Source: a virus
Virus record (IMG/VR): IMGVR_UViG_3300025601_000114
Span: 1-24,750 of that record
Strand: one strand, 5' to 3'
DNA length: 24,750 nt
Shown: positions 2,853 through 18,681 of the stretch, in pieces
How the letters are laid out: every line of letters begins with the position of its first letter
Position numbering within the stretch: position 1 is the first letter of the stretch
Program-made: the position numbers and the translations under genes
Notes under the pieces: model-generated
Told to the model about the DNA's origin: nothing
What the model saw: only the letters and a program-made list of their open reading frames with translations
Database searches by the model: none

Positions 2853-3726
2853 CGCCACCCACGAAGCCGCCAACACCGGCGAGCTCGTAGATGAAATTCC
2901 ACCAGCAGGTTACCACTTCATGCCAGACGGTTCTTTGATGAAAGACTCTGAGCACGACAACGAAGCTGCTGCCGGTGACCCCTGCTGGGAAAATTACGTT
3001 CAAATCGGCATGAAAGAGAAAGGTGGCAAGCAGGTTCCTAATTGTGTCCCTGCCACCTCCACCGCTATGCTCGAGGCAGAAGAGTACGCTCTTTCTGCTA
3101 AGACTCCTGCCCCCCAAAAAGATAAAATCAAGGGCTCATCTAAAAATAAAAAAGATTCTGCTTCTGATGGCAAAAAGAGTAAAGAGATTACTTTTTCTAA
3201 GGCTGTTGAAAAGGCCATCTCTAACAAAGTTAAGGAGCACAATAAAAAAGCTCCTAAGGGCCGTCAGGCAACTCTTGGCATGTTGAAAGCTGTGTATCGC
3301 CGTGGCGCGGGAGCTTTTTCTTCTAGTCACCGTCCTGGCCAGACTAGAGGTTCATGGGCCATGGCTCGCATTAACGCCTATCTCCGTCTTCTTTCTTCGG
3401 GCAAGCCCTCTCGGGCTGCGTACACACAGGATAACGACCTTCTTCCAAGTTCGCACCCTAGGGCTTCTAAAAAGAAAGCAGACGCTTCTATTGAGTTAAG
3501 TGTCACAGCTAGGCCGGAAGCTGAGTACACGTCTACTCAAGACAAAATTTTAGCCATGACTGAGCTTTCTGGGCTCGGCTACGAGGCTGAGTTTGCTTTC
3601 TCTGCGAGCTGGCTCCGTGCCGTTCGCAACGGTGACGACCCCTTCAAAAGAATTTCCATGTTGGCAACCATGACGTACGACAGTCTGGATGCGGACCTTC
3701 TTCCCACTAAGAGAGATGAAGCCTAA
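2845..3726 (+). CDS. Lys-rich structural-region protein with CWxxY...VPNCVP and DUF5824-like motifs (293 aa)
   Basis: The start I choose is TTG 2845, eight bases before the end of the portal stop, because GAGGAG lies at 2832-2837 with a 7-base gap. A further upstream ATG (2740) would add a Pro/Lys-rich shadow of the portal tail. Around residues 46-72 is a motif with CWENYVQIGMKEK and VPNCVP, seen repeatedly in phage head-region proteins. A very Lys/Ser-rich linker follows. Then, around residues 155-220, comes a domain with VYRRGAGAF, HRPGQTRGSWAMARI and YTQDNDLLP, resembling a recurrent phage domain (DUF5824-like, from memory). The linker uses T- and A-rich codons unlike its neighbours. The function is unknown; a capsid-associated or DNA-binding role is inferred from position and charge. 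Confidence 0.7.
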   Translation: MPNATHEAANTGELVDEIPPAGYHFMPDGSLMKDSEHDNEAAAGDPCWENYVQIGMKEKGGKQVPNCVPATSTAMLEAEEYALSAKTPAPQKDKIKGSSKNKKDSASDGKKSKEITFSKAVEKAISNKVKEHNKKAPKGRQATLGMLKAVYRRGAGAFSSSHRPGQTRGSWAMARINAYLRLLSSGKPSRAAYTQDNDLLPSSHPRASKKKADASIELSVTARPEAEYTSTQDKILAMTELSGLGYEAEFAFSASWLRAVRNGDDPFKRISMLATMTYDSLDADLLPTKRDEA

Positions 3727-6700
3727 TGTTCGGTAAGCGGAGTGTTTCAAATAGACTTTTCACCCACGGTGACGCTGAGGCGCGAATCAAGACCGCCGCC
3801 TGGGAATTTGCGGACGAGGCCAACGAGGGACAGCACGGGATGCGCCTTGTCAACAAGGGCACCGCGGTAGAGGTTGCTAGCCGGTCCTTGGCTAAAACCA
3901 AAGACCAAGCCTTTTCTGTACGCCAGCAACACGCACTCAAAGCTGTCTCTGAACACATTTCTCTCGTTCAAACAAGCAAGCTTATCAACCCCGCCTCGGT
4001 GCACCTTGACTTGCTGGTTATCGGGCACCCGCTGTCCACTCGTAGGCACAAGATGGATTTTTCTAGCGTCAGAGATGCTCGGGCCCGTTGGTACGCAGAC
4101 GACCCCCGAATCGTCGACACCGAGGTACGTTCCCTTGTTATCAAGGCGTTTACTGCCTCTGCGGGCACTCCTGAGCACGAATACGCGGCTGCACGTCTCA
4201 AGGCTATGGGTGTGGCATACATCCCTATAGTTGCTGCCGCTGGGTTCAACGACGGCGCCAACAACGGGTTCTGGCGTCGCCAGCTCCGCAACTCTAAGGG
4301 TCAGTTCGCCTTCATGGGCGGAAAGGCTCGTCTTCTTGTTGGCAGGAACGGGAAAGCCTACAACCAAACGGGTAACATCGTCTCGACCGACCCCGAGCGC
4401 AACACTGTCATTCTAGAAACTCCCCAGGGCAGACTCTTTGAGGCGGACGCTGACGCACTAGAAATTGGTGAAGTCAAAGCTCTCATCCCCGGGAAAAACG
4501 ACGCAGACGGCCTGAGCGGGACACCCGCCAAGACTTCTGCGTCTGACACGATTGTTGACGAAGCCGACATGGTGTTTGTCGACCAACCTTACGGTTTTGA
4601 CCCGGTGAGCACAGACGACATCACTATGCCCAAGGGCGTCAATGAAGCCGATGTCATTTCCGCGTGGGAAGACGAGCCCGGCAACTACCAGGTCCTGAAG
4701 AGCGACGCTGGGTTTATCCTCTCCCGAGTAGAGCTGAGCGGGATTGTCCCCATCTCTGCTCACGAGAATTGGGTGGGCATTCAGAAAGCTATTGACGACG
4801 ACGAGCCCCTGTTCGCAAAAGGTAAAGACGCTGTAGCCATGATTCCCCAGGGTGAGCTTGACAGGGACCCCGAGACGGCACGTAGTGTGAAGGTACCGGT
4901 AAAGCCAAAGCCAAAGCCAGAACCAAAATCCACGACCGCCCCCAGTGTGAAGATACCGGTGGAGCCAAAGAAGGAGGACACCAGCGGGTTCTATGAAACG
5001 GACCGCGGCCCGTTCTTCCCCGAGGGTTCCAATAAGGATATCGAGTCCGGGGACTTTACCGACGACCCCTCGGAACTTGCCCAGCGCTACGATGAGAAAG
5101 AAATCACTGACGCCTTGACTGAGGCTGTACAAGGTGGCACCGGTGAGGGCATGCTCCCCTTTGATGACGGAGATGAGTTCCTCCCCGCTGAGGCTCTGTA
5201 TCAAGCGCTAAAGACACAGGGCGCTGACGCTGACGCAATCCTAGACGCTATAGAAGGCAAGGACTCCTCTGATACCGAAGAGCCTGTAGCAGAGATTCCC
5301 GAGGCAGAAGAAGAAGAGCCTGTAGCAGTAATTCCCGAAGAGTCCAAAGAAGAGGAGACTCAGGAAGCAGAGGAAACCCCCGCTGAGCTGACTCCGGCTG
5401 ACCTCCGTGAGAGCGGTGAGCTCCCTCCCCTGCTCGAGGCACTTACCGACGAAGAGCTCCAGGAAATTATTGACACCGGGGACTACCGAAAGTTCCTGCC
5501 GGACAACGAAGAGTTCCCAAACATTCCCGAGGGGAAGTATGACCTCGACGGCGGGCACACCCCTCCGGGCGAAGTCGTATCTGAGACCCCCGAGCCTGGG
5601 ACATCCAACAGCCCCGCTGATTTGGCCATGGACATGGCGACTGAAACTTTAGAACAACTTCTGCGTGACGCTGTCGACGGCGTCGGCGGTCGCCCCGGAT
5701 ATGCACAGGTAACCTACCTGGACTCTAACGGGGAAGAAGCTTCGTACGATGTCCCCGCGGAGTTCTTGCGTGAGGCTCTTCAGTTGCAGGGCATAGACAC
5801 CAACGAGATTTTGCGCGAAGCTTACGAGAACAACGAGCCAACACCTGAAGAAGCAGAAGAGATGATTGAGGAAGAGGGTGTGGAGGAGGAACCCGTAGCA
5901 GAAGTCCCCACAAGCGCCCCCAGCTCCGAAAAAATTTACAAGACTAAGGGCTGGACAAAAGTCGGCGAGCAGGCTGGCTCCAACCCCGGTGGGTTGTACG
6001 AAGACGAAAACGGGAAACAGTTCTATGTGAAGTTCCCCAAGTCCGACGACCACGCCCGTAACGAGGTCCTCGCTTCCGCACTCTACGAAGCTATGGGCAT
6101 CCCCGTTGGCCGTGTGTACCTCGGTCTCGACGACAACGAGAAGACCATCCTTGTCTCCCCCATCCTTGACGGCGTAGATGGCGAACTCAATGAATTTATG
6201 GACAACCCTGAGGTTCTTGCCACTGCGCTAAAGGGCTTTGTCCCTGACGCGTGGCTGAACAACTGGGACGCTGTCGGGCTTGAGTACGACAACATGCTTG
6301 TCAAAGACGAAAAAGTTTATCGCATCGACCCGGGTGGGTCACTGTTCTACCGGGCCCAGGGCAAGAACAAAGACATGCCCGATGACGTGCTCCTTATCGA
6401 GAGTCTTCGGAATCCCAAGATGAATCAGCAGTCCGCCGACGTCTTCAAAGGGATGAACGACGCTGAACTGAATGAATCGGCAAAAGTGGTTGCCGACTTG
6501 TCAGAGGAGAGAATCAAAGAAATTGTCGATGAGATTTTCCTTGAGGACCCCGACCGTGGCGAAGAAATCTTAGACATACTCATCCTACGCCGTAAGTGGA
6601 TTATGAATGAGCTCGATACGGAGTCCGAGCCCGTAGCGGAAATTCCCGACGAGGCACCCTCGGAAACCGCCGGACTGACCCCCGACGAACTAGCCGCTGG

Positions 6701-9700
6701 CTGGGCCTGGGACAAGACCGGGGAGAACACGTATCAGCTAGACGCCACTTCGACTGTCCCCGTAAGCGGTCTGATTTCCCTGGGGGCAAATGGCAAGTGG
6801 GTTCTCTCTGAGATCATGGGTGATGACCCCGATGGCATGGACCAGGACATTATGGACATCGGTAGCTACGACACCGCCGAAGAAGCTTTTGACGCAAGCA
6901 TGGATACCGTAAACCTCAATGGGCTATTTGACATGGGTGCGGTCCAAGACCTGCGTGAGTCGCAGGAAGCGGAAGAGGGCCCGGAACCGGAGCTTGTGGT
7001 AGAGGCGGACGACCCACCTCCCGGTAGCAGCGAGCCCGTTATTCTTGACCTGGACGGCGATATTGAGGCCCAGGTAGGCGACGCTATTACTAATAAAAAA
7101 GTTCTTACTTTTGCTTACAAAGGCACTACGCGTGAGGTAACCCCCATACTGCTGGAGCTTAGCGACGGCGAAACCAACACAAATATTCTTACCCGTGACG
7201 CCGAGGGCAAACTCAAAAAGTTTACCGTCAGTAAAATGGTGCAGATTAGCGCTGTCGCCGAGGTCGAAGAATTTGACTCCCCAGGTGTAGAAGTCCCCGT
7301 GGAAGATGCCGAGCTTCCCGAAGCGAAGGGGAGTGAGACCGCAAGTCAAATTGATGGCCTGATAGCCCTCATGCACAACGCGCTGAACCCCACAACCACC
7401 GATGTAGAAAACCACGGTGAGGGTAAGGATGTCGACGACGACATCACTGATGAGGCAATTGATAAACTCGACAACCTGGTTGACGAAGCCGAGACTGCCC
7501 TCAACACCGCAGAGAAGCTTATCGCTGATGCCGTCCAGTCCGCACTTGATGGTCCCACCGAGGACGACGACACCCCCAGCACCGTAGACGAACTTGAGAA
7601 AGCGTCCGCAGCGATTGATGTGGACCAGTCAGCAACCGACCTTATCTGGCAGCAAACTATTGATGACTATGACGGAAAAGTTCTGCCCAATGGGCACATT
7701 GTTGTCTTCTCGACTATGCACGACAAACGTAGATTTGATGTTGTGGTTCGTCGCCAGAACAACAACTCCTTCCACATCTACCACCGGGTGACAGCAGAAA
7801 ATGGGGACACCCGAATAAAGGAGATGGGGAAGAACGGCTGGCAGTCAACCAAGGCCCTGTTCTCAAAGATTGATGACCAAATCGGCAACGCTAGGGACAC
7901 CCCAGCGCCGATCATAAAAAGCCTCACTGCGGAAAACCTAAAGACTTTGTACGCCGACACGGCAAAGCCCAAGCAGTCCGGTTCCTATGTTGACAGTAAT
8001 AACGATGTCATTGTCATAGGCGACCGAGTTACGGTCACAAGCAAAACGCACAGTAAATACAAAATGGGCGCCAAGGTCAACTCCCTTAAGCGGAAGAAGA
8101 GCGTGGAGCCCACCACGGGCATATACACCTACACCGACTACCTTTCGGTGACCTACAGCGACGGCGAAACCAACACAATTGTTGCGCAGAGTACTACCCT
8201 TCAGACGGCCGCGTCTATTGGGACCCCCACGCCAGCCCCCGGAGCCCCCGAAAGCATCCCTTCGCAGCCCACCCCGGGCAATACCGTCACATATGCCCAG
8301 GCTGAGAGCCTGCTACCCCCGGGTGCTGTCATTATGTTCAAAGACACCAGCGCTCTAGTCCAAAAGACAGGTGTCGGCACGTACGTAGAGTACAAGCCGG
8401 AAGGTGGGTTCCCCGGGAAAACTATCCCATTCCTAGCAACCGATACAGCAACAGTTATTTCTCTAACTGGCAAAACCGGTGGGGCTGTGGATGTTACCCC
8501 CGCGGCCCCCACCCCCGCGCCTGCCGCGCCCGCTGGGCCCCCCAAGCCCGGGCCTATCGCCGGGCAGGGCCCCAACGGCGCAACGTCTAACCCAGACGGC
8601 ACACCTCTCAGTGGTAAAGAGGTATCGAGCACCGGCACCTCGATAAGTTCGTACACCGAAGAAAGTATGGTGCTTACGGTGCAGAAAACATACTCGCCCC
8701 TAATCACCGGGACTTCGGCATTTTACGACGAGTTCCAAGGGGCAAAGAGTTTTGATATGCTCAACGGCTGGGTACAAACCGGAGTGGATTTACTAGACGG
8801 TGAAAAGAAAAAGAATATCCCTAAGGACAAAAACAACCTCGAACTTGTCCCTGGCGTGCTTGTCTGGGTGGGTTCAGGTAGGGCGATAGTCAGCGGCATA
8901 AATAAATATGCGTTCGATGCGAGCAGCCCCGCAGGTAAAATCTATGGTGAAAAGCCCGGAAGTCTCAACGTCGTCATGCTATCTGGTCCGCAAGCGGGCA
9001 AGACCTTCAACAACGTCAACGCCAAAGACCTTGTCTCAACTGGCAACTTTATCTCAAAAGATAGTGCCCAGGACAAGTTCAATGTATATTTTGACCCTTC
9101 GTTCGCTGTAAAAGTTTACAAAGGTAAAGAGACCACGATCGCCAGTCTCAAGACTAACGACCCCGATAATGTGTCTGGTCCTGGATTTGATGCGCCGGAA
9201 CTCGAACAACTCCCTAGCTGGGACGCATCTGCAACAGGCACCAAGACCATCGAAAGTATCCTCGCGCTGTTGGCCGATACGGCGAACAAAGACGGTGCCG
9301 ATGGGTACTACACGCTAGTAGACGGGGATTCGGTAGAGGACCTGCAGATTAGGGTGCAAAGGGTTATGAAAGGCAAGAAAGCCCGTATAAGAATCACAGG
9401 AAGGCTCACGGACTGGGCCGGAACCAACCTGATAAAAAATATCAAGGAGGGCAACCCCTCGGAGTTTGTCGTAACCCCCACTATCAGTCTAGACAGGTTC
9501 AAGAAGGACGTGTCGGGAGAACTTGTCCACAAGGGAGTAAGCCCAGCTAAGTATGTCGACCCACAGGACAGAGGGGCTTCGTACACTATTGCTGACGCCG
9601 ACGGCGCAAAGATTCAAGTCTTCCGGGCCATTGATGCCTCGCAAGAGGACACCGAGAAAGTTGACTTCTTCCAGCACGTCAACCAATCCACAACCCCGAA

Positions 9701-10616
9701 AGCTTTCCACAACTTCTTTGACATAAATCTCCCCGGTGGTGCGGACGCCGCTGCTATTGAGAAGGCGCTGGCGACAGCGGGTGTCCAAAGCTCCCGGCCC
9801 GCCACGGACGTAGACGTCAAGAACCTGGCGGAAAACAAGCTTCTTACACTGTTTGCGAATCTTAGCGACGGGACAAAGAACCCCCGGGGTGCCCTTCGCC
9901 AGAAGGAGTTACAGAAAATCAAGGCGGTGTGGGGTGTGACTCCGGAGGATGTTGTGCTGGCCTCCGACGACACCACCCAGGGGCGCCCACTTCTTAGGCT
10001 GCCTGAGAGTGTTGTCAAGAAGATAATCAAGCAGACTAAACTTGGCCCGGTACACCACGATGTTTATGTGCCCCAGGTCTCCGGGGAAAGCTCAACAGCC
10101 CGGAAACAAAGACACGTAGACGCGCTAGTTAACATTTTGGCGAGTGGCCGACTTGAAAGCACCGTAAGCAGGCACGTCACCGGGGACTTCTCCCGGGGGA
10201 ACTCCTCGGCCGCGGATGTCAAGGGTGCGGGCGCTGGGTACGTGTTCTTGTACATGAATGGTGGCATTTTCCCCCAGACCAACATGAGCCAGACCTACCA
10301 AATTGTGTTTGACCCTCGGGAGGTTCTGGCCAACATGGGATTTACTGCCAACAGTGGCGACGGCTGGGGAAAGCTAACACAGAGCAACACGGATATCTTC
10401 TCGGAGATAGAAAACCGTGGCCACTATGGGGAGCTGATGATCAAAAACAATCTATCCCTTTCTGCCTCGGTGGGGGTCAACATGCCAGCTGAAATGGCTG
10501 TACGAACTATAGCGGCACTTAGGGCCCGAGGGATAGATAGGATAGCAGGTATGTCTTTGGAGGACTACTTTGCACTAGACGTAAAGAGCCTAAAACAAAA
10601 AATAAAGGATTACTAA
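3726..10616 (+). CDS. Giant multi-domain polyvalent protein with kinase-like, WYL-like and ART-like domains (2296 aa)
   Basis: One uninterrupted frame starts at ATG 3726, overlapping the previous stop by one base. Visible layout: 1-178, unknown N-terminal domain. 179-255, RNSKGQFAF motif plus a small beta-barrel. About 390-420, Pro/Lys linker with SVKVPV and SVKIPV copies. About 450-510 and 633-701, two copies of a helical mini-domain ending in PAExLxxAL. About 736-963, kinase-like fold with candidate residues K769, D848, N856 and D868. About 1105-1185, WYL-like domain. About 1424-1495, KOW-like barrel. About 1500-1600, Pro/Ala linker. 1600-2040, unknown. About 2045-2290, ADP-ribosyltransferase-like end with H2130 and E2236. 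Acidic linkers repeat EPVAEIP. No catalytic gap or frameshift was seen. Its position between portal and protease suggests a virion protein that may be ejected into the host (inference). The frame itself is certain; the domain names are pattern-based. Confidence 0.85.
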   Translation: MFGKRSVSNRLFTHGDAEARIKTAAWEFADEANEGQHGMRLVNKGTAVEVASRSLAKTKDQAFSVRQQHALKAVSEHISLVQTSKLINPASVHLDLLVIGHPLSTRRHKMDFSSVRDARARWYADDPRIVDTEVRSLVIKAFTASAGTPEHEYAAARLKAMGVAYIPIVAAAGFNDGANNGFWRRQLRNSKGQFAFMGGKARLLVGRNGKAYNQTGNIVSTDPERNTVILETPQGRLFEADADALEIGEVKALIPGKNDADGLSGTPAKTSASDTIVDEADMVFVDQPYGFDPVSTDDITMPKGVNEADVISAWEDEPGNYQVLKSDAGFILSRVELSGIVPISAHENWVGIQKAIDDDEPLFAKGKDAVAMIPQGELDRDPETARSVKVPVKPKPKPEPKSTTAPSVKIPVEPKKEDTSGFYETDRGPFFPEGSNKDIESGDFTDDPSELAQRYDEKEITDALTEAVQGGTGEGMLPFDDGDEFLPAEALYQALKTQGADADAILDAIEGKDSSDTEEPVAEIPEAEEEEPVAVIPEESKEEETQEAEETPAELTPADLRESGELPPLLEALTDEELQEIIDTGDYRKFLPDNEEFPNIPEGKYDLDGGHTPPGEVVSETPEPGTSNSPADLAMDMATETLEQLLRDAVDGVGGRPGYAQVTYLDSNGEEASYDVPAEFLREALQLQGIDTNEILREAYENNEPTPEEAEEMIEEEGVEEEPVAEVPTSAPSSEKIYKTKGWTKVGEQAGSNPGGLYEDENGKQFYVKFPKSDDHARNEVLASALYEAMGIPVGRVYLGLDDNEKTILVSPILDGVDGELNEFMDNPEVLATALKGFVPDAWLNNWDAVGLEYDNMLVKDEKVYRIDPGGSLFYRAQGKNKDMPDDVLLIESLRNPKMNQQSADVFKGMNDAELNESAKVVADLSEERIKEIVDEIFLEDPDRGEEILDILILRRKWIMNELDTESEPVAEIPDEAPSETAGLTPDELAAGWAWDKTGENTYQLDATSTVPVSGLISLGANGKWVLSEIMGDDPDGMDQDIMDIGSYDTAEEAFDASMDTVNLNGLFDMGAVQDLRESQEAEEGPEPELVVEADDPPPGSSEPVILDLDGDIEAQVGDAITNKKVLTFAYKGTTREVTPILLELSDGETNTNILTRDAEGKLKKFTVSKMVQISAVAEVEEFDSPGVEVPVEDAELPEAKGSETASQIDGLIALMHNALNPTTTDVENHGEGKDVDDDITDEAIDKLDNLVDEAETALNTAEKLIADAVQSALDGPTEDDDTPSTVDELEKASAAIDVDQSATDLIWQQTIDDYDGKVLPNGHIVVFSTMHDKRRFDVVVRRQNNNSFHIYHRVTAENGDTRIKEMGKNGWQSTKALFSKIDDQIGNARDTPAPIIKSLTAENLKTLYADTAKPKQSGSYVDSNNDVIVIGDRVTVTSKTHSKYKMGAKVNSLKRKKSVEPTTGIYTYTDYLSVTYSDGETNTIVAQSTTLQTAASIGTPTPAPGAPESIPSQPTPGNTVTYAQAESLLPPGAVIMFKDTSALVQKTGVGTYVEYKPEGGFPGKTIPFLATDTATVISLTGKTGGAVDVTPAAPTPAPAAPAGPPKPGPIAGQGPNGATSNPDGTPLSGKEVSSTGTSISSYTEESMVLTVQKTYSPLITGTSAFYDEFQGAKSFDMLNGWVQTGVDLLDGEKKKNIPKDKNNLELVPGVLVWVGSGRAIVSGINKYAFDASSPAGKIYGEKPGSLNVVMLSGPQAGKTFNNVNAKDLVSTGNFISKDSAQDKFNVYFDPSFAVKVYKGKETTIASLKTNDPDNVSGPGFDAPELEQLPSWDASATGTKTIESILALLADTANKDGADGYYTLVDGDSVEDLQIRVQRVMKGKKARIRITGRLTDWAGTNLIKNIKEGNPSEFVVTPTISLDRFKKDVSGELVHKGVSPAKYVDPQDRGASYTIADADGAKIQVFRAIDASQEDTEKVDFFQHVNQSTTPKAFHNFFDINLPGGADAAAIEKALATAGVQSSRPATDVDVKNLAENKLLTLFANLSDGTKNPRGALRQKELQKIKAVWGVTPEDVVLASDDTTQGRPLLRLPESVVKKIIKQTKLGPVHHDVYVPQVSGESSTARKQRHVDALVNILASGRLESTVSRHVTGDFSRGNSSAADVKGAGAGYVFLYMNGGIFPQTNMSQTYQIVFDPREVLANMGFTANSGDGWGKLTQSNTDIFSEIENRGHYGELMIKNNLSLSASVGVNMPAEMAVRTIAALRARGIDRIAGMSLEDYFALDVKSLKQKIKDY
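5073..5829 (+). repeat. Duplicated ~60-residue helical mini-domain within the giant protein
   Basis: Residues about 450-510 and 633-701 of the 2296-aa protein share a pattern: a helix ending with Ala-Val-x-Gly, a Gly-rich turn, then (L/V)PAExLxxALxxQG followed by an (A/N)xIL helix. The copies are diverged in DNA sequence but align in order and spacing, with an acidic EPVAEIP linker and a second short helical region between them. It is an old internal duplication, not a recent tandem repeat. Confidence 0.55.
7161..8178 (+). repeat. Pair of exact 22-base direct repeats (7161-7182 and 8157-8178)
   Basis: The same 22 bases, beginning AGCGACGGCGAAACC, occur at both places in the same reading frame and encode SDGETNT each time. 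The flanking bases differ immediately on both sides. Both copies lie at the end of a beta-strand-rich segment of the giant protein (the WYL-like and KOW-like modules). They could mark a partial duplication or gene conversion, or a shared loop under strong constraint. Confidence 0.7.
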
Positions 10617-11206
10617 TGAGAGATAAAACTCTGTTCCACAAGCCTTGTGTCCTGCACAGGTACGCCAGCCTAGACGAGTCGGACGATTCCGCGGAGACGT
10701 ATCAGATAATTGTCCTTGGTGCGTACTACCAAACTCCCCCGGGGCTTTCCCCGGCAGTTTTTGTTGCCGCTGGCAATATGACTACTAAAGGATTTGGACT
10801 GGTGGACGGCACAGAGCTAGTTCCAGAGGGCCCAGGGTATCGCTTTGAGTCGGGCACCGGACTCTTTACAATTGGTCCAATCCTGCCGTTCCACAATATT
10901 GAATTCTTTTTTGGAATCCCTATGGGTGTCCCAACAATGGAGGAGCTTTCCGGCACTGGCTACGAGTTTGTAATTCCTGTGCCTGGCTCCCCCGAGGCGC
11001 CTATTGAGAATCTCTACATCAGAAAAGAGGACGACACTCTTCTAAGAAGGGTAGACGAGCGTTGGGTCAAGTTTGGGGGCGATGATTCCAGAGTTGAGAT
11101 GCAAGCCATCTCTGGCCTGAACGCGTCGATAGTCGCCGCGGCACAAACCCCCATTACTGCCCAAGAATTAAACATACCCACCGCCTCCGGCGAGATACAA
11201 TTGTAG
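10616..11206 (+). CDS. Hypothetical protein (196 aa)
   Basis: I do not recognise this protein. The start is ATG 10616, overlapping the stop of the giant gene by one base (TAATG), with AAAGGA just upstream. It is a soluble, beta-rich looking protein with many Gly, Pro and aromatic residues and no membrane segment. Around residues 136-157 the pattern LYIRKEDD, RR and RWVKF resembles a segment in the next small protein and one in the protease fusion, suggesting a shared small beta module. It ends in EIQL with the TAG stop inside the ribosome binding site of the next gene. Sitting between two giant head-region genes, it is probably a minor structural or assembly protein (inference). Confidence 0.65.
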   Translation: MRDKTLFHKPCVLHRYASLDESDDSAETYQIIVLGAYYQTPPGLSPAVFVAAGNMTTKGFGLVDGTELVPEGPGYRFESGTGLFTIGPILPFHNIEFFFGIPMGVPTMEELSGTGYEFVIPVPGSPEAPIENLYIRKEDDTLLRRVDERWVKFGGDDSRVEMQAISGLNASIVAAAQTPITAQELNIPTASGEIQL

Positions 11207-11213
11207 AAGGAGA
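11205..11213 (+). promoter_or_regulatory. Strong ribosome binding site overlapping a stop codon
   Basis: AGAAGGAGA sits 5-6 bases ahead of ATG 11219 and includes the last two bases of the upstream TAG stop. It is among the strongest Shine-Dalgarno matches in the window, suggesting the 98-aa protein is made in quantity and coupled to its upstream neighbour. Confidence 0.7.
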
Positions 11214-11218
11214 TAAAC

Positions 11219-11515
11219 ATGATTTCAAAAGGAACTTTGATAGTCGATTACATCACACTTTGGGTCGACAACAAAACTGGCAAGCCGTCCGAGCTGGTCT
11301 ACACGGTTGAAAACTACGGGGTATTCCACCGTAGAGAAGGCCGTTGGGCGCCGTTTGATACGGAGGAAACACCTGGTATGTACGACGACACTAGGACCAT
11401 CACCCTAGAAAAAGAAGACTCCAAGGAACTTAAGCTGCTCGAAAAATTTGACAGCGGCAAAGAAATTGACATAGCTGAGGTGGCCGAATATGAAACTAGA
11501 AGGTACAATGACTAA
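11219..11515 (+). CDS. Small hypothetical protein (98 aa)
   Basis: The function is not recognised. A strong ribosome binding site (AGAAGGAGA) precedes ATG 11219. The first half looks beta-rich (GTLIVDYITLWVDN, ELVYTVENYGVFHRREGRWAPF). The second half is charged and probably helical, ending ETRRYND. The YGVFHRREGRWAPF part follows the same pattern as RR plus RWVKF in the preceding protein. The end overlaps the start of the protease fusion, so the three genes appear coupled. A minor head component or assembly partner of the protease is a guess from context. Confidence 0.7.
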   Translation: MISKGTLIVDYITLWVDNKTGKPSELVYTVENYGVFHRREGRWAPFDTEETPGMYDDTRTITLEKEDSKELKLLEKFDSGKEIDIAEVAEYETRRYND

Positions 11516-14500
11516 CGCAGTTGAGCTTGTAGGCAGAATCGGCACCCAGTTCTTTTTCAGTAAAGACGGCATGGGTGTTGTTGTCGATGAGCTCAGCAAC
11601 ACGGTTGTGTCGGTCAGTGCCGTCGCAACTATTACCGCCTCCCTTGCGTGGAAAAGGACTGTCAAGAAGCCAGCCAACTCTACCCTAGAACTAGCCAACG
11701 CCGCTCTCACTGAGCTTGATATCACTGTCGTCTCTGCCAACGACCGCATGTACACGGTCCCCAAATCTGTCTCCTCCGAGGCTAAGCGCGGTCTGAAGTG
11801 GCGTGAAGATATGGGACACGGCGGCTCATGGGTTGGGCTCGCCATTGCACACACTTTAGTTGCGGGTGGCCAGATCAATATTGACCAGGTTCGGCACATC
11901 GCTGAGTACTTTCCCAGGCACGAAATAGATAAAAATGCCACGGGCTATACCCCATCTGACGATGGCTACCCCAGTGTTGGACGTGTGTCCTCAGCCCTTC
12001 GTGGTGGCGACGCCGCCCAGCGCTGGGCCTCTGGAATTACTGACCCTCTGACAGCTTCTATGTACGGTGACCCCGGGGGCGCTGAGCGCACCGATGTCAG
12101 CTCGTTTTCCCACGAAGGCCCCCCCACAGAGTTCTTCATCCGAATCAGCCTGAACAAGGGCGCGGTGGACCGTCTTTACCGTCTTGAAGAAGACGGCAAG
12201 TGCCAGGTTTGGGATGACGGCTACTGGGACGACATGGGGAACATCGACCACGACTTTGACACCTTCGACAAAGTCCTAGATGACCCATACGACATGAGTG
12301 AAAAGATTTATGTTCCCATAGACCCCGAGACGGCTGTCACTATCTCGGCGATGTTTGACGGTGCACCCTTCAAGTCAGTCACCCTTAAAGAAGTAAATTT
12401 TGACGAAACAGATATGTTCGAGCACGCAATTCCAGAAATGGATTGGGACACGTACGACCGATTTAGCACTGAGGCAGTCCCTGAGCTGACGGACTACCGC
12501 CCCGGATACGGCATGAGAGCCGCCGGTGAGGACCAGACCCCCGGTGTGTACACAGACGAAGAGCGCTCCGAGAACGCTGCAGCCCAGGTCCGAGATAAGT
12601 TTGGTCGATTCACTCAGACAGGCTCCACCGTTATTATTGGCGGTGACGCTAATTACTCTGGTGTTGTTACTGCGCAGAACCCCGAAGCCGGGTCTGTCAG
12701 CGTCCAACTAGCCGATGGGAACACAGTTGAGGTTCCTGGTGCGACTGTCCAAGAGTCCAGCACATTTGAGCCTGTCTCCCAGGTACCCGCTAGCAATCTA
12801 GATTTTAGTGGGATTCTTGGGGAACCTCGAACACCTATTGACCAACCCCAAGCCAACCTCCCCGGGCGACTACCCGCACTCAACGCAAACGACTTAGGCT
12901 CCCTTGTCACCGACTGGGGCACCTGGGCTTCCGACCAACGCCTTGCCCCCGAATACACACCGGGCCCCGCGGAGCCTTTTATCCCCAAAGCCGTTCCAGA
13001 CTACAACACAGCAATGGGTCGCTACTACCAGGGCGCCTTCAACCCCAACGGAAGCCCCAGGGCGGGCTGGAACCCCGCAATTGCACCCAACGTTGCCAAC
13101 GACCCCCTTCTTCGGGATTGGCTGGACAACAGCCTTGGCGGGCCCTCAAACTCCTACCAGGGCGGGTGGTACAACCCAATAGTTCCCACAGACGGTAAAA
13201 ACTCTCGTAATGAGGTCTATGGCAAAGAGAACACGGATGCGCTCGACAAAAAGTACAACATCTACGCTTCTGGTGTTGTTGCCGCGGGTGCAAAGCCTGA
13301 GGAACTCACTCCTGAAACTTCCGACGTAGCTCCCATCTACATGGCTATTGTTGCGCCCGACGACCCCCAAGCTGTTATGACCTTGCTGTCCCTTGTCCCG
13401 GCCCACGCCAAAAGCACATCACCCGCCACCTACCGGCGTGAACCGGGCGAGTGGGTCAAGGACGACAAGCTTATGAACGACCTCAACAGCCCCACACCCC
13501 CGCCGGTGGTGGTGCTAGATAACATGTCTCTCTCTGCTGTCATCGAACAGATTGACGGCAAAGAGGTCACCCCTGTAGCTGCCTCAGCTGCTTTGAGCAA
13601 TAATTTCCTGCTTCGTAGCATCATGGCTGCTGGTGGCGCTGACCGCAACAGGGGCAACGCTGAGACTTTGCGTCGCTACTGGACCGTAGGTAAGGGTGGT
13701 GTCAAGATTCGCTGGGGCACTGGTGGTGACTGGACCCGCTGTAACCGCTATCTCAAGAAGTACATGGGACCAAGGGCGAAGGGCTATTGCGCCCTCCGGC
13801 ACAAAGAGATGACCGGTGTGTGGCCCGGGGACAAGCGAAACGCTGGCAAGAAAAAGTCCGTACGCGCCTCCGCTGAGCCTCAGATGGTGTCCCCGGAGAT
13901 TGAGACACTAAAAACTACTGAAACTATTATCAGCGAGTTCACTCTGCGTGCCAGAGCCTACTCAGCAAAGTCTCGTCTTGTAGGTCGCTCAGGACCTACA
14001 CCAGAGCTTGGGCAACGCGGCGCTCAGTTTGTCATCCCTCTCGTCATCCCCGAAGGTGTAGAAACCGGAGACGGTCGAATTTTCTACAAAGACTCTATCG
14101 ACCTCCGGGTAATGCCTGTGCCCTTGCTATGGCAGATTAAGACTGGTCCCGGTCATGACGGCTCGGTTGTTGTTGGGCAGATTGTTCACATGGAGCGAGT
14201 GGCGGCTGGTATCGGAAATGGCTACGGCTACTTCGACACAGGGGATTACGGCGTAGAGGCTGAGCGTTTGGTCCGGTATGGGTTTATCCGCGGGGTCTCT
14301 GCCGACATGGACATGTTTGAAGAGGACGAGCCCGACGAGCCAGAAATTCCTGAAATTGACGCGGAGCTGTCTGAATCTGAAGTAACAGAAGAAGAAAAGT
14401 CCGATAAAATATATATTAGACAAGCCAGAGTTATGGCTGTCACGATTGTACCCAAACCAGCATTCCAAGAATGCTACATCCAGGTGGTCGAAGAGACCGA

Positions 14501-16403
14501 TGGACTAGAGGAGGAACCAATGCAAGCAGACGGTATCTATGTCGACGGAGTCAATCCTTTGGACGCATCTGCGCTGGTCGCTTGCGGTGTGGTTGCGGGT
14601 GCTATCCCCGTGGCTCCCCCAAAGGCTTGGTTTGCCAACCCCAAGCTGAACAGACCCTCCCCTGTTGTTATCGACGATGAGGGACGAGTCTTCGGACACA
14701 TTGCCTCCTGGGGAATTGACCACATCGGTATGACTGCCGGTACACGCCCCCCGCGTTCTCGTAGTCAGTACGCTTACTTCCACACCGGCTCGTTGCAGAC
14801 CATGGAGGGGACTAACGTCTCTGTGGGTCAGCTGACGCTTGCTGGTGGCCACGCTGGCATGCAGGCGGACGCAGCTCAGGCTGTCCGTCACTATGATGAC
14901 ACAGCCTCCGCATTTGCCGATGTATTCGCTGGCGAGGACGCATACGGAATCTGGGTTGCTGGTGCTCTGCGCCCCGGTACTAGCCCCGAACAAATCCGTG
15001 CTGCCCGTGCATCGGCCCCCTCTGGTGACTGGAGGCCCATCAAAGGCCGCCTTGAGCTGGTAGCTGTGTGCCAAGTAAATGTCCCTGGGTTCCCCATTGC
15101 TCGTGCCCGTGTTGCGTCTGGTCAGATTATGGCCTTGGTTGCAGCCGGGGCTAGCACTTTGGCCCAGTTGAAGTACGACCCCCTGGCTGAGCTGACCGCA
15201 AAGGTCACCAGCCTCGAGACCGCTCGCTACGCCCCGGGTGCAGAAGCGGCCAAGTCCCGCTTCTCCGCCATGCGCCAGGAAGTTCTTGCTGCTCGCGCAG
15301 GCGAGCTATCAAACCGTGTGAAGGAAGCCAAAGAGTCTAAGAAGGGTGAGGAGGACGGCGACTGGGAATACATGATTCAGATGATGGATGGTGACCCTGA
15401 AGATGAATTAGCTGTTGTTTCCCGCCGTGTCCGTGAGCGTCTTGCTAAAGAAGGCAAGGCACTCCCTGATGGCTCGTTCCCCATTCGTAACGCAAACGAT
15501 TTGCGCAACGCGGTCAAAGCATACGGCAAAGCTAAGTCCGGAGCCAAGGGTGCCGTTCGCAAGCACATCATGGTTCGCGCTAAGGATTTGAAAAAAGAGG
15601 ACTTGCTCCCTCCCAGATGGAGTACTGCGTACTCTGCCGACGGCGAGGAAATTTCTTTGCGCGACCGGGCACTCACTGCTGCATCTACATTTGAGGCGCC
15701 GGTATCAGACATTGTCACTGATTTTCGTAAAAGAGCCGAATTAGCACTCAATTCTCTAAATTCGAAAGCACTTTTTTCAAAACAGAGTTTGACCGCTGCA
15801 GCCGAGGATGATGTGCTTGAGGACCTCACTCGTGAGGAAATTAAAGCTCTCAAGCAGGAAAAGCAGTCCCAGGACAACGAGGACGACGGCATAGTCAAAT
15901 TTACCCCCGACACACAGCCCCGGGACGACTCTGGGAAGTTCCGAAAGGTGCTTGCCAGGCTGAAACAAGACCTTGGTGCGGTTGGTTTGCAACGTGTTGT
16001 TGAGAAAGTTCAAGAGGCAGAGAACCTCGACAACGCTGGGAACTACACCGCTGCGTCGCAAGCTGCCGATGATTTGATTGGAATTATCGACAGATTGGAC
16101 ACAAAAGCCCTAAATCCTGACTCTTTGGAGAATGTCCGAGAGAGCTCGGCGGAACTTGGCAAAGTTATTGCGAACTTGCCTTTTGACTTCGGAGCAGACG
16201 CTTCCAAGATTAGATTCAGCGATGTCCCTCCTGCACTCCGCAGTTTGATGGAAGACATGATTGACAAGGTCGAGCAGAAAATTGGTAAGGAAGATGCAGA
16301 CATTGCGACCTCCGACCTGAAGAGTTTTATGTCCGGTGCCGACTATTACAGCCAGTCAGAGATATCATCTCAAATGTCTAAGTTGCTACGACTCCTAACA
16401 TAA
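11508..16403 (+). CDS. Capsid maturation protease in a giant multi-module fusion (about 1631 aa)
   Basis: The preferred start is ATG 11508 (ATGACTAA overlap with the previous stop, AGAAGG 4 bases upstream); ATG 11490 with GAGG 9 bases upstream is an alternative adding six residues. Modules by approximate residue: 84-178, a phage domain with GGSWVGLA, RHIAEYFPRHEIDK and GYPSVGRV. 360-425, RDKFGRF plus a KOW-like barrel. 535-684, a domain of unknown role. 713-778, RGNAETLRRYW ... KGYCALRHKEMTGVWPG. 810-1223, the actinophage capsid protease core with FGHIASWG (H1064), PPRSRSQYAYFH, GGHAGM, HYDDT and SGDWRPIKGRLELV ... NVPGFP. 1308-1372, ALPDGSFPIRNANDL ... RKHIMVRA. 1470-1628, QPRDDSGKFRKVLARLKQDLG and a helical end. 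It is expected to cleave capsid N-termini during maturation. The catalytic residues are inferred; the family match is strong. It is far longer than a usual protease. Confidence 0.85.
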   Translation: MTNAVELVGRIGTQFFFSKDGMGVVVDELSNTVVSVSAVATITASLAWKRTVKKPANSTLELANAALTELDITVVSANDRMYTVPKSVSSEAKRGLKWREDMGHGGSWVGLAIAHTLVAGGQINIDQVRHIAEYFPRHEIDKNATGYTPSDDGYPSVGRVSSALRGGDAAQRWASGITDPLTASMYGDPGGAERTDVSSFSHEGPPTEFFIRISLNKGAVDRLYRLEEDGKCQVWDDGYWDDMGNIDHDFDTFDKVLDDPYDMSEKIYVPIDPETAVTISAMFDGAPFKSVTLKEVNFDETDMFEHAIPEMDWDTYDRFSTEAVPELTDYRPGYGMRAAGEDQTPGVYTDEERSENAAAQVRDKFGRFTQTGSTVIIGGDANYSGVVTAQNPEAGSVSVQLADGNTVEVPGATVQESSTFEPVSQVPASNLDFSGILGEPRTPIDQPQANLPGRLPALNANDLGSLVTDWGTWASDQRLAPEYTPGPAEPFIPKAVPDYNTAMGRYYQGAFNPNGSPRAGWNPAIAPNVANDPLLRDWLDNSLGGPSNSYQGGWYNPIVPTDGKNSRNEVYGKENTDALDKKYNIYASGVVAAGAKPEELTPETSDVAPIYMAIVAPDDPQAVMTLLSLVPAHAKSTSPATYRREPGEWVKDDKLMNDLNSPTPPPVVVLDNMSLSAVIEQIDGKEVTPVAASAALSNNFLLRSIMAAGGADRNRGNAETLRRYWTVGKGGVKIRWGTGGDWTRCNRYLKKYMGPRAKGYCALRHKEMTGVWPGDKRNAGKKKSVRASAEPQMVSPEIETLKTTETIISEFTLRARAYSAKSRLVGRSGPTPELGQRGAQFVIPLVIPEGVETGDGRIFYKDSIDLRVMPVPLLWQIKTGPGHDGSVVVGQIVHMERVAAGIGNGYGYFDTGDYGVEAERLVRYGFIRGVSADMDMFEEDEPDEPEIPEIDAELSESEVTEEEKSDKIYIRQARVMAVTIVPKPAFQECYIQVVEETDGLEEEPMQADGIYVDGVNPLDASALVACGVVAGAIPVAPPKAWFANPKLNRPSPVVIDDEGRVFGHIASWGIDHIGMTAGTRPPRSRSQYAYFHTGSLQTMEGTNVSVGQLTLAGGHAGMQADAAQAVRHYDDTASAFADVFAGEDAYGIWVAGALRPGTSPEQIRAARASAPSGDWRPIKGRLELVAVCQVNVPGFPIARARVASGQIMALVAAGASTLAQLKYDPLAELTAKVTSLETARYAPGAEAAKSRFSAMRQEVLAARAGELSNRVKEAKESKKGEEDGDWEYMIQMMDGDPEDELAVVSRRVRERLAKEGKALPDGSFPIRNANDLRNAVKAYGKAKSGAKGAVRKHIMVRAKDLKKEDLLPPRWSTAYSADGEEISLRDRALTAASTFEAPVSDIVTDFRKRAELALNSLNSKALFSKQSLTAAAEDDVLEDLTREEIKALKQEKQSQDNEDDGIVKFTPDTQPRDDSGKFRKVLARLKQDLGAVGLQRVVEKVQEAENLDNAGNYTAASQAADDLIGIIDRLDTKALNPDSLENVRESSAELGKVIANLPFDFGADASKIRFSDVPPALRSLMEDMIDKVEQKIGKEDADIATSDLKSFMSGADYYSQSEISSQMSKLLRLLT

Positions 16404-16566: not shown

Positions 16567-18681
16567 GTGGACCAGATTAAAGAGTCGATGAATCAGCTCT
16601 CTGAACTAGATGACGCTCAAGTCAACGAACTTCAAAGTGCAATCATCGCCGAATTTGAGACGGTCGAATCAGAAGACCCTTCTTCACAAACAGTCGATGC
16701 TATGACATCGCTTGCCGACATGCTTGACGGTGTTCGAGGAGAACTCAAGCAGCGCGAGGCCGCAGTTTTGGAGCTCGCTACGCGAGCCACCGAGGCAGCC
16801 GCACGTGTACACGGTGAGACCGATAAGCCAGAAGAGGGCATGCCCTCCGAAGAGTCTGAAGCAGTGCCCGTCCCCGAGTCTGAAGCAGCAATGCAGAAAG
16901 ACCCAGAAGATGAGACTGCCGCGGAAGAAGCAGCACCCGTCATGCCAGACGCCCCAGCGGCCGAGGCAGACGTACCTGTAACCCCCGCCCCCGAGGAAGC
17001 ACCCGCTCCCGAGGATGAAGACGAAGAAAAGAAAAAGGCTATGTCTGAAGCGCCAACTGAAGTGAAGAAAACCTCTGAACTTTCGACCGAAGAAGTCACC
17101 GCCCCTGCAGAAGCAGAAGTAGCAGAAGTAGCAGCCGATGGGGCTGTTGCTGAGGTTGCCGAAGCCGAAGCAGACCCAGAAGGGGAAGCTGCCGAAGAAG
17201 GAGCATCCGATGAGGACGCATCCGTAGATGAGGATTCAGAAGCTGAAGCTTCCGTTGAGCCGACTGCGACTGCCGAAGCATCTGTGGATGTTCCCGCCGA
17301 GGCTGAAGCTTCTACTACAGAACCAACCGATGAACCAACCCAACCTGCAGCTGAACTTTCAGCGCAAGAAACTATGGAGGCACCCGTGACCGCTTCTGCA
17401 AACGCAGAAAACCTCGACCTCGAGGTCCCAGCGGACCGCCGAATGGAAATCAAGGAGTCTTACGCTCCCGTGGCAATCACGGCGGGTGCAGACATTCCTG
17501 GTTATACAGCCGGTAGTACTCTGGAAAGCATGGACACCGTCGCTGAGGCGATGGCAAAACGAATTCACTCGCTTCGGCGTGTGAATGGTGGAGATGGCGA
17601 ACAGCACATTGTTGCTTCCGTCACGACCACTTTCCCCGAAAACCGTACTCTCGACAGCGATGCTGAGAGCAACTGGGCCAAAATCAATGAAGTAGTTTCC
17701 CCGGAAGCAATTACCGCCGCTGGTGGTCACGTTGCTCCCTTCGAAGCTCGCTACGAAATCTTCGGATTCGGCACAACCGCCCGCCCTGTGCGTGACGCGT
17801 TGCCTCGTTTCCAGGCTGACCGTGGTGGTATCCGCTTCATCACACCGCCCATTCTGGAAGACTACGAAGATGCGACTGGCGTCTGGACTGCTGCGAACGA
17901 TGCTGCAGGTAGCCCCAGCCCCGCAACAAAGGCTAGCCTGACAGTAACTGCTGCCGGAGAGATTTCCGTCGCAACTGACGCGATTACCCTTCAGATGCAG
18001 TTCGGTAACCTCGCAACTCGTGCGTACCCTGAACTGATTGTTCGTCACAACGAACTTGGTCTGATTCAGCACGCCCGTGAAGCTGAAGTACAGATTCTCT
18101 CGAGAATCGGTACCCTGTCCACAGCCGTCACAACTTCGAGCCTCCTGGGCTTCGGTCGTGACTTCTTGGTCCAGCTCGGTCGCGCCGCGACTGCCTACCG
18201 GTCTCGCCACCGTTTGGAAGTTGACACTTCCCTTCGCGTCATCATGCCTTCATGGGTGAAAGATGCGATGGCAGCCGACCTCGCTCTCTCGATGCCTGGT
18301 GACAGCACTCTCAACGCTTACGCGGAGATTGATGGCTACATCGCGGCTCGTGGGCTCCAGGTCAGCTATACCCTTGACGGAAGCGTCTTCGGGGCTCAGG
18401 GTGCAGCCGCACTTCTCGAGTTCTCTGACACGTTCGTCTGGTACCTCTTCGCTGAAGGAACATTCTTGCTCCTTGACGGCGGAACCCTGGACCTCGGAAT
18501 CATCCGGGACTCCACCCTGGTCGGAACTAACGACTACAAAATGTTCATTGAAACATTTGAGGGTGTTGCCAAGGTCGGTATCGAGTCGCTCGCTATCACT
18601 TCCACCATCAACGTGAACGGTGCAGCTGCGGCTCTCCGCGACACGCTCGGTGGGGTTGCTGCGGCGGTAATCGAGTACTAA
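16567..18681 (+). CDS. Major capsid protein with N-terminal scaffold-like extension (704 aa)
   Basis: The start is GTG 16567, because AAGGAGGG lies just ahead; the next in-frame ATG (16588) is too far from it. Residues 1-90 look helical and coiled (SELDDAQVNELQ, a DGVRGELKQREAAVLELATRA run). Residues 90-275 are a low-complexity, Glu/Ala/Pro-rich acidic region with repeated EAEA and ESEA units. From about residue 285 (VPADRRMEI) an HK97-type capsid body begins, with AITAGADIPGYTAGSTL, GGHVAPFEARYEIFGFG, RPVRDALPRFQADRGGIRF and VIMPSWVKDAMAADLALS. There is no separate scaffolding gene, so the extension probably acts as scaffold and is removed by the protease (family knowledge plus inference). 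The mature part would be about 420 residues. Confidence 0.9.
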   Translation: MDQIKESMNQLSELDDAQVNELQSAIIAEFETVESEDPSSQTVDAMTSLADMLDGVRGELKQREAAVLELATRATEAAARVHGETDKPEEGMPSEESEAVPVPESEAAMQKDPEDETAAEEAAPVMPDAPAAEADVPVTPAPEEAPAPEDEDEEKKKAMSEAPTEVKKTSELSTEEVTAPAEAEVAEVAADGAVAEVAEAEADPEGEAAEEGASDEDASVDEDSEAEASVEPTATAEASVDVPAEAEASTTEPTDEPTQPAAELSAQETMEAPVTASANAENLDLEVPADRRMEIKESYAPVAITAGADIPGYTAGSTLESMDTVAEAMAKRIHSLRRVNGGDGEQHIVASVTTTFPENRTLDSDAESNWAKINEVVSPEAITAAGGHVAPFEARYEIFGFGTTARPVRDALPRFQADRGGIRFITPPILEDYEDATGVWTAANDAAGSPSPATKASLTVTAAGEISVATDAITLQMQFGNLATRAYPELIVRHNELGLIQHAREAEVQILSRIGTLSTAVTTSSLLGFGRDFLVQLGRAATAYRSRHRLEVDTSLRVIMPSWVKDAMAADLALSMPGDSTLNAYAEIDGYIAARGLQVSYTLDGSVFGAQGAAALLEFSDTFVWYLFAEGTFLLLDGGTLDLGIIRDSTLVGTNDYKMFIETFEGVAKVGIESLAITSTINVNGAAAALRDTLGGVAAAVIEY

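Follow-up and report, generated by a model that had tools for sequence, protein, structure and literature searches.

It is already known that a capsid protease and a scaffold can be fused in one protein (PMC7302621), and that multi-domain proteins with an embedded peptidase can be packaged in phage heads (PMC5512222). Ancient folds and a Ser/His mechanism are regarded as common to phage and herpesvirus proteases (PMC7411985), and the R- and M-sites of the herpesvirus assemblin have been given for pseudorabies virus as YLQA-T and VQA-S (PMC4498786). In this study we analysed a virus record of 24,750 bases from IMG/VR, IMGVR_UViG_3300025601_000114 (the window, by which we mean this whole stretch), which encodes a 1631-residue protein, P0001, directly ahead of the major capsid protein gene. 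Our analysis suggests that P0001 is probably a protease-scaffold polyprotein that is built into the prohead, and that a short motif recurring in its linkers is its predicted cleavage signal.

An earlier note on this DNA had described P0001 as a multi-module protein with an embedded capsid protease core, and this description is borne out. The frame is open throughout, with an in-frame ATG at 11490 as a second possible start, and all quoted signatures are found in it: EYFPRHEIDK at residue 133, GYPSVGRV at 153, RGNAETLRRYW at 715, CALRHKEMTGVWPG at 761, PDGSFPIRNANDL at 1320, HIMVRA at 1353 and PRDDSGKFRKVLARLKQDLG at 1471. The core, which the note had placed at about residues 810-1223 and estimated as a quarter of the chain, is present, but its two domains, named here D1 and D2, measure only about one fifth. 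Orthologs of nearly full length with 40-47% identity occur in 8 phage records, including phages DSL-LC01, Cece, Pumpernickel, Big4, Zooman and A3Wally, and also in many IMG/VR contigs, and the module order is kept in about 135 distinct loci, both environmental and named. No close DNA relative of the window was found in the phage collection.

A cleavage-like motif in the linkers of head proteins

The motif pattern, [LIVMF][TVAI]A[AGS][AGS], was drawn from the linkers of the window and of phages GMA2, GodonK and Forza and was then tested elsewhere; a strict form, [LIV][TV]A[AGS][AG], was also used. In phages that carry D2, head-cluster proteins are enriched in the motif by about 4- to 9-fold, whereas tail proteins stay near expectation. 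In the window, for example, head proteins contain 20 matches against 3.2 expected and tail proteins 1 against 1.5. Among 23 further environmental loci, with D2 less than 90% identical, the protease reading frames contain 172 matches (16.5 expected), the capsid proteins 109 (18 expected) and the downstream genes 15 (14.6 expected); the corresponding counts for the strict form are 87 against 4.0, 80 against 5.2 and 6 against 4.5. The matches also concentrate between modules: the linkers of 21 full-length proteins hold 150 motifs against 7.2 after shuffling within linker composition, a 21-fold excess, while the excess inside modules is mild (21 against 8.0). In 13 of 14 phages the portal protein has the motif among its first 70 residues, against an expectation of 0.45.

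The form of the motif was examined in other ways as well. An unbiased 3-residue scan places LVA, VA.G, L.A.G and ASA near the top, and relaxation of single positions reveals that hardly any residue but Ala is accepted at the third position and that Ala, Ser and Gly predominate at the fourth. By a position-weight model trained on the protease and capsid genes of other phages, 18 head-cluster sites rank first in the whole window, and the top-ranked sites include those in the portal, a giant 2296-residue protein and a 196-residue protein, all of which lie outside the training set. The motif appears to track D2 rather than the S78 protease family, to which D1 belongs, because phages or proteins without D2 are not enriched and phages with D2 alone are. 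Head proteins of phages without D2 give 1 match against 0.7 in Che8, 0 against 1.4 in TM4 and 1 against 0.8 in Bxb1, and 17 S78-bearing proteins without D2 together give 2 against 6.6 expected, in contrast to the D2-only phages GMA2 (17 against 1.8) and Bizzy (18 against 2.1). Among open-licence papers we found no cleavage motif for these capsid proteases.

These results are consistent with a cleavage signal that would be cut after Ala at P1, with Leu/Val/Ile-x-Ala at P3-P1 and Ala, Ser or Gly at P1'. The C-terminal scaffold module, MC, with its LRLLT end, would bring P0001 together with the capsid protein into the prohead; after shell closure the protease would cut the linkers, and the scaffold and most fragments would then exit, although the basic modules M2 and M3 may remain with the DNA. 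The motif would be read by D2, alone or together with D1, since it follows D2 and not S78. The suggestion of the earlier note that modules are freed by self-cleavage is strongly supported at the sequence level by the linker motifs and by the 16 loci in which MC is a separate gene.

Domains D1 and D2, the C-terminal module and alternative readings

Judged by alignment, D1 is an S78 prohead protease. Its family matches PF04586 in 23 of 28 members, with a best value of 2e-5, although the window's own D1 taken singly, at 0.051, does not reach the curated cut-off; hhalign with an independent S78 alignment gives E=4.6e-7, with the His and Ser motifs superposed. H883 and S931, which are invariant in the alignment and coincide with the S78 motifs HD and SVGY, are the predicted catalytic residues. 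D2 is the most conserved part of the chain and has invariant residues H1115, H1128 and S1172 (SGDWR). Comparison of D2 with S78 or D1 by hhalign gives a probability of 0.1-0.2%, no Pfam S78 match to D2 was found, and neither D1 nor D2 has a PDB homolog by sequence. We considered that the two domains might be a tandem duplication, which is not supported (hhalign 0.24%). D2 was found in no fewer than 843 phage records, almost all with actinobacterial hosts, and D1 in 204, at a threshold looser than that for D2; D2, and D1 as well, are clear members of the head maturation protease families phrog_18402 and phrog_859. In six Gordonia phages with complete genomes, the large GMA2, GodonK and Forza and the smaller Inspectinfecti, Bizzy and Nubi, D2 is present and D1/S78 was undetected genome-wide, with the caveat that a very divergent S78 could escape detection.

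MC is fused to the protease in 119 distinct loci and forms its own gene, directly between the protease and capsid genes, in 16. The LRLLT at its chain end is nearly invariant. In tailed phages the gene order portal-protease-scaffold-capsid is the rule, and since the separate MC gene stands at the scaffold position of this order, MC is very probably a scaffold. Its comparison with PDB gave marginal helical-bundle matches only, which were not used.

Several findings weigh against the proposed polyprotein and its cleavage signal. A recognisable protease fold in D2 was not found by sequence, and the case for MC as a scaffold consists of gene position and the conserved end alone. The portal of phage Atuin lacks a motif site, and some matches fall in folded regions, such as residue 117 in module M1 and residue 460 in the capsid protein, where they are probably uncut. 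The cluster-B mycobacteriophage Antonia is weakly enriched, with 7 matches against 1.4 in the broad form and 0 against 0.4 in the strict form, and Patience, which lacks D2, has 3 against 1.1, none of them in the portal, protease or capsid protein. The environmental loci are also related, so that sites at the same position are not independent; what carries the enrichment argument is the many different positions at which the motif occurs in a single phage. The Patience count, like the Ala-rich nature of the linkers, would suit the view that the motif is a mere by-product of linker composition in actinophage head proteins and no signal at all. We regard this as highly improbable, since the 150 linker motifs were counted against shuffling within that very composition, there is no excess in the tail proteins of these phages and actinophages without D2 show essentially none.

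It is conceivable, too, that the motif is a short binding motif, a docking site for the capsid protein, the portal or D2, and that the polyprotein is one uncut scaffold that is lost or kept whole. Short hydrophobic-Ala motifs in flexible linkers would suit docking too. However, the restriction to Ala at the third position and to Ala, Ser or Gly at the fourth matches assemblin-type sites, a protease domain lies in the same chain, and the motif occurs near the portal N-terminus, ahead of the capsid fold and at module boundaries, which are the places of maturation cuts in other phages, such as SPN3US (PMC10052503); docking is thus distinctly unlikely. As to which domain does the cutting, D1 is a true S78 relative with conserved His and Ser, and D2 resembles no known protease, as would be expected if D1 were the sole protease and set the specificity, with D2 as a structural partner or substrate adaptor. 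This appears rather doubtful in view of the six Gordonia phages, which have D2 and the motif with D1/S78 undetected, and of the S78 proteins that lack both D2 and the motif. We put forward tentatively, and at somewhat less than even chances, that D2 is an unrecognised prohead protease, not S78 by sequence, with an assemblin-like code, and that it makes an entire class of actinophage head clusters into self-cutting modular polyproteins able to carry cargo enzymes.

Mobile modules, embedded enzymes and gene neighbourhood

Tracing the module order in environmental relatives with home-made profiles, we found that the commonest architecture is N1-M1-NB-KOW-MID-M2-D1-D2-M3-MC (48 reading frames in one scan, 70 in another), in which KOW is only a label. 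Variants carry an extra M2 after M3 or ahead of D1; Arthrobacter phage Beagle has its M2 between D1 and D2, and in phages Atuin and Talia1610 M3 and M2 are located in the upstream gene. The modules are mobile, as these architectures indicate. M1 also lies N-terminally in S78-capsid fusions and C-terminally in portals, and it occurs on MuF proteins and as a stand-alone protein; M2 occurs in 250 phage records and moves among head proteins, and M3 likewise recurs on proteins of other phages. The M1 profile gave no match in the four Microbacterium orthologs. Sharing of modules with other phage proteins, as proposed in the earlier note, stands for M1, M2 and M3 but not for MC (its PRDDSGKF module), which was found only in P0001 orthologs. 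The profile searches that the note had called for gave no meaningful Pfam match for M1, M2 or M3, and M1 has none in PDB either. M2 and M3 are strongly basic, with a charge of +12 each.

Some observations on relatives may be added. A stand-alone M1 protein of 110 residues in Pseudomonas phage PaBG (4956-5288) adjoins topoisomerase II genes. Long acidic proteins of other phages (L231:3396-6293 and L225:3726-5285) carry a C-terminal M3, and in L231 this protein is followed by a separate M2-like gene. In DSL-LC01 the first two 'capsid maturation protease' genes are parted at 17690-17930, by a sequencing error or a frameshift; we rejected this first split as a module boundary, as the frame changes inside the conserved MID domain. 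The split ahead of MC is clean.

Enzymes do occur in related head clusters. In Bizzy gp18 and Inspectinfecti gp19 a 2H phosphoesterase, identified by its HLTL and HITA motifs, is joined in one protein to D2 and an M2-like module, with cleavage-like motifs in the linkers; the annotations of these fusion genes (8950-12042 and 8950-11712) read 'head maturation protease' and 'RNA ligase'. Nubi encodes the 2H domain in a gene of its own, which starts with MTAAG. GMA2 gp10 (6050-8701, annotated 'head maturation protease') has a C-terminal Acb1-like (anti-CBASS) domain, weak at E 8e-4, directly after VTAAA, and Forza gp80 (7554-10607), in the head cluster, ends in an ADP-ribosyltransferase (PF03496, 7e-18) and has an LVAAG motif at residue 53. 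Since relatives hold a 2H phosphoesterase inside the protease polyprotein, release of enzymes by self-cleavage is plausible for the P0001 family. The same embedded enzyme, and the head-cluster neighbours with ADP-ribosyltransferase or Acb1-like domains, could also suggest that M1-M3 themselves serve as injected effectors or in anti-defence and not in assembly. We consider this unlikely. No enzymatic signature was found in M1-M3, nor an enzymatic domain in P0001 outside the protease region, and unrelated phages carry M1-M3 on their portal, MuF and protease-capsid proteins, so that a role in assembly or packaging fits the named modules better. Of the earlier note's overall idea, prohead tools or effectors freed by self-cleavage, the self-cleavage stands as a prediction and the location inside the prohead is supported by gene position and by the presence of the same modules on those head proteins; effectors are unsupported for the modules of P0001, its C-terminal one being scaffold-like.

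The head cluster of the window is a normal actinophage-type one, in which the portal, a DUF5824 protein, the 2296-residue giant protein, two small genes and P0001 are followed by the major capsid protein and tail genes (Table 1). An RGAGAF module akin to the DUF5824 protein is seen in other phages, where portal, MuF and S78-capsid proteins carry it. The giant protein has an RNSKGQF segment at residue 188, similar to the RDxxGRF segment of P0001, and gave no meaningful match in Pfam, NCBIfam or PDB; a HipA/PI-kinase-like stretch at about residues 790-1010 was judged by eye only. We sought a solved relative of the major capsid protein by which to check its mature end, and found none. Cutting at the predicted sites would divide P0001 into N1-M1-NB (1-338), 339-592, MID (593-692 or 708), M2 (709-787), D1 (788-1030), D2 (1031-1212), the M3 region (1213-1391) and MC (1431-1631); by cuts of the same kind the portal would lose about 67 residues, the capsid protein about 276-306 and the giant protein about 144-170.

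Table 1. Features of the window; residues are those of the protein concerned, and a hyphen within a site marks the predicted cut.
Feature	Position	Strand	Residues	Remarks
Portal protein	1101..2852	+		phrog_776; substrate candidate
Predicted portal site	1293..1307	+	65	LTA-AA
DUF5824 protein	2740-3726			PF19141, 6e-8, plus CWENYVQIGMK..VPNCVP segment
Giant head-cluster protein	3726..10616	+		2296 aa; candidate packaged cargo
Predicted giant-protein site	4149..4163	+	142	FTA-SA
Predicted giant-protein site	4227..4241	+	168	IVA-AA
Head-cluster protein	10616..11206	+		196 aa; motif at aa 49 and 172
P0001	11508..16403	+		1631 aa; predicted protease-scaffold polyprotein; single open frame
N1	11508..11759	+	1-84	conserved N-terminal module; kept in orthologs
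M1	11760..12062	+	85-185	EYFPRHEIDK..GYPSVGRV; phrog_2859
NB	12075..12512	+	190-335	acidic
Weak predicted site	12513..12527	+	336	MRA-AG; NB/RDxxGRF linker
RDxxGRF + small module (KOW)	12570..12767	+	355-420	
Predicted site	13275..13289	+	590	VVA-AG
MID	13290..13547	+	595-680	
Predicted site	13575..13589	+	690	VAA-SA; MID/M2 linker
Predicted site	13623..13637	+	706	MAA-GG; directly ahead of M2; kept in orthologs
M2	13638..13847	+	711-780	RGNAETLRRYW..GYCALRHKEMTGVWPG; phrog_6439
Weak predicted site	13860..13874	+	785	VRA-SA; M2/D1 linker
D1	14031..14549	+	842-1014	S78-family prohead protease domain
Predicted site	14589..14603	+	1028	VVA-GA; D1/D2 linker
D2	14616..15143	+	1037-1212	unknown fold; candidate second or principal protease
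Predicted site	15135..15149	+	1210	LVA-AG; D2 end; kept in all orthologs
M3	15420..15617	+	1305-1370	PDGSFPIRN..HIMVRA
Predicted site	15672..15686	+	1389	LTA-AS; M3/MC linker
Predicted site	15789..15803	+	1428	LTA-AA; would free scaffold module
MC	15888..16400	+	1461-1631	predicted scaffold module
Major capsid protein (MCP)	16567..18681	+		704 aa; acidic N-terminal extension; phrog_777, NF033847
Predicted MCP site	17386..17400	+	274	VTA-SA
Predicted MCP site	17476..17490	+	304	ITA-GA; in conserved stretch APVAITAGADIPG
Predicted MCP site	17710..17724	+	382	ITA-AG; capsid-fold start

Comparison with known protease-scaffold systems

The annotations of phrog_18402, phrog_859 and actinophage 'capsid maturation proteases' name no catalytic domain, cleavage site or module map. 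What our analysis adds is the module map, the predicted scaffold as a separable unit, a predicted cleavage code and evidence that the code follows D2. If correct, the code would allow the mature ends of the portal, the capsid protein and cargo proteins to be predicted from sequence and would indicate which packaged enzymes are released. The class concerned is that of the capsid proteases of more than 800 sequenced phage records, and the question arises whether the protease is the near-universal D2 and not the recognised S78 domain.

In the giant phage SPN3US, one prohead protease, gp245, likewise trims portal, capsid and other head proteins at a short motif, mostly removing N-terminal propeptides; however, it cuts after Glu, has a different motif and its own C-terminal propeptide, and is not part of a polyprotein (PMC10052503, PMC7411985). 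The polyvalent proteins are also multi-domain, head-packaged and thought to be processed by an embedded assemblin-like peptidase, but this domain is reported to lie always at the C-terminus, with conflict enzymes as most of the other domains (PMC5512222), whereas P0001 has its protease in the centre and a predicted scaffold at the C-terminus, and several catalytic conflict domains, by which polyvalent proteins are recognised (Iyer et al. 2017), were not found in it. In the fusions of Microbacterium phages of cluster EE and of other small actinophages, capsid protease and scaffold share one gene; unlike P0001, these include the capsid protein as well, their genomes are small, and M1-M3 or a cleavage code are undescribed for them (PMC7302621). 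In the herpesvirus UL26 precursor a serine protease is joined to a scaffold that binds the capsid protein by its C-terminus, and the precursor cleaves itself at release and maturation sites of the form (V/L)xA-S (PMC4498786). P0001 shares with it a consensus motif at the module junctions, as judged statistically, and would also resemble it in uniting protease and scaffold in one chain if MC, which stands in the chain with D1/D2, is the scaffold that we predict. It differs in that the protease lies mid-chain, in having D2 and at least 5 further modules, and in its far larger number of predicted sites. This parallel with the herpesvirus protease-scaffold bears on the common origin of the two capsid systems.

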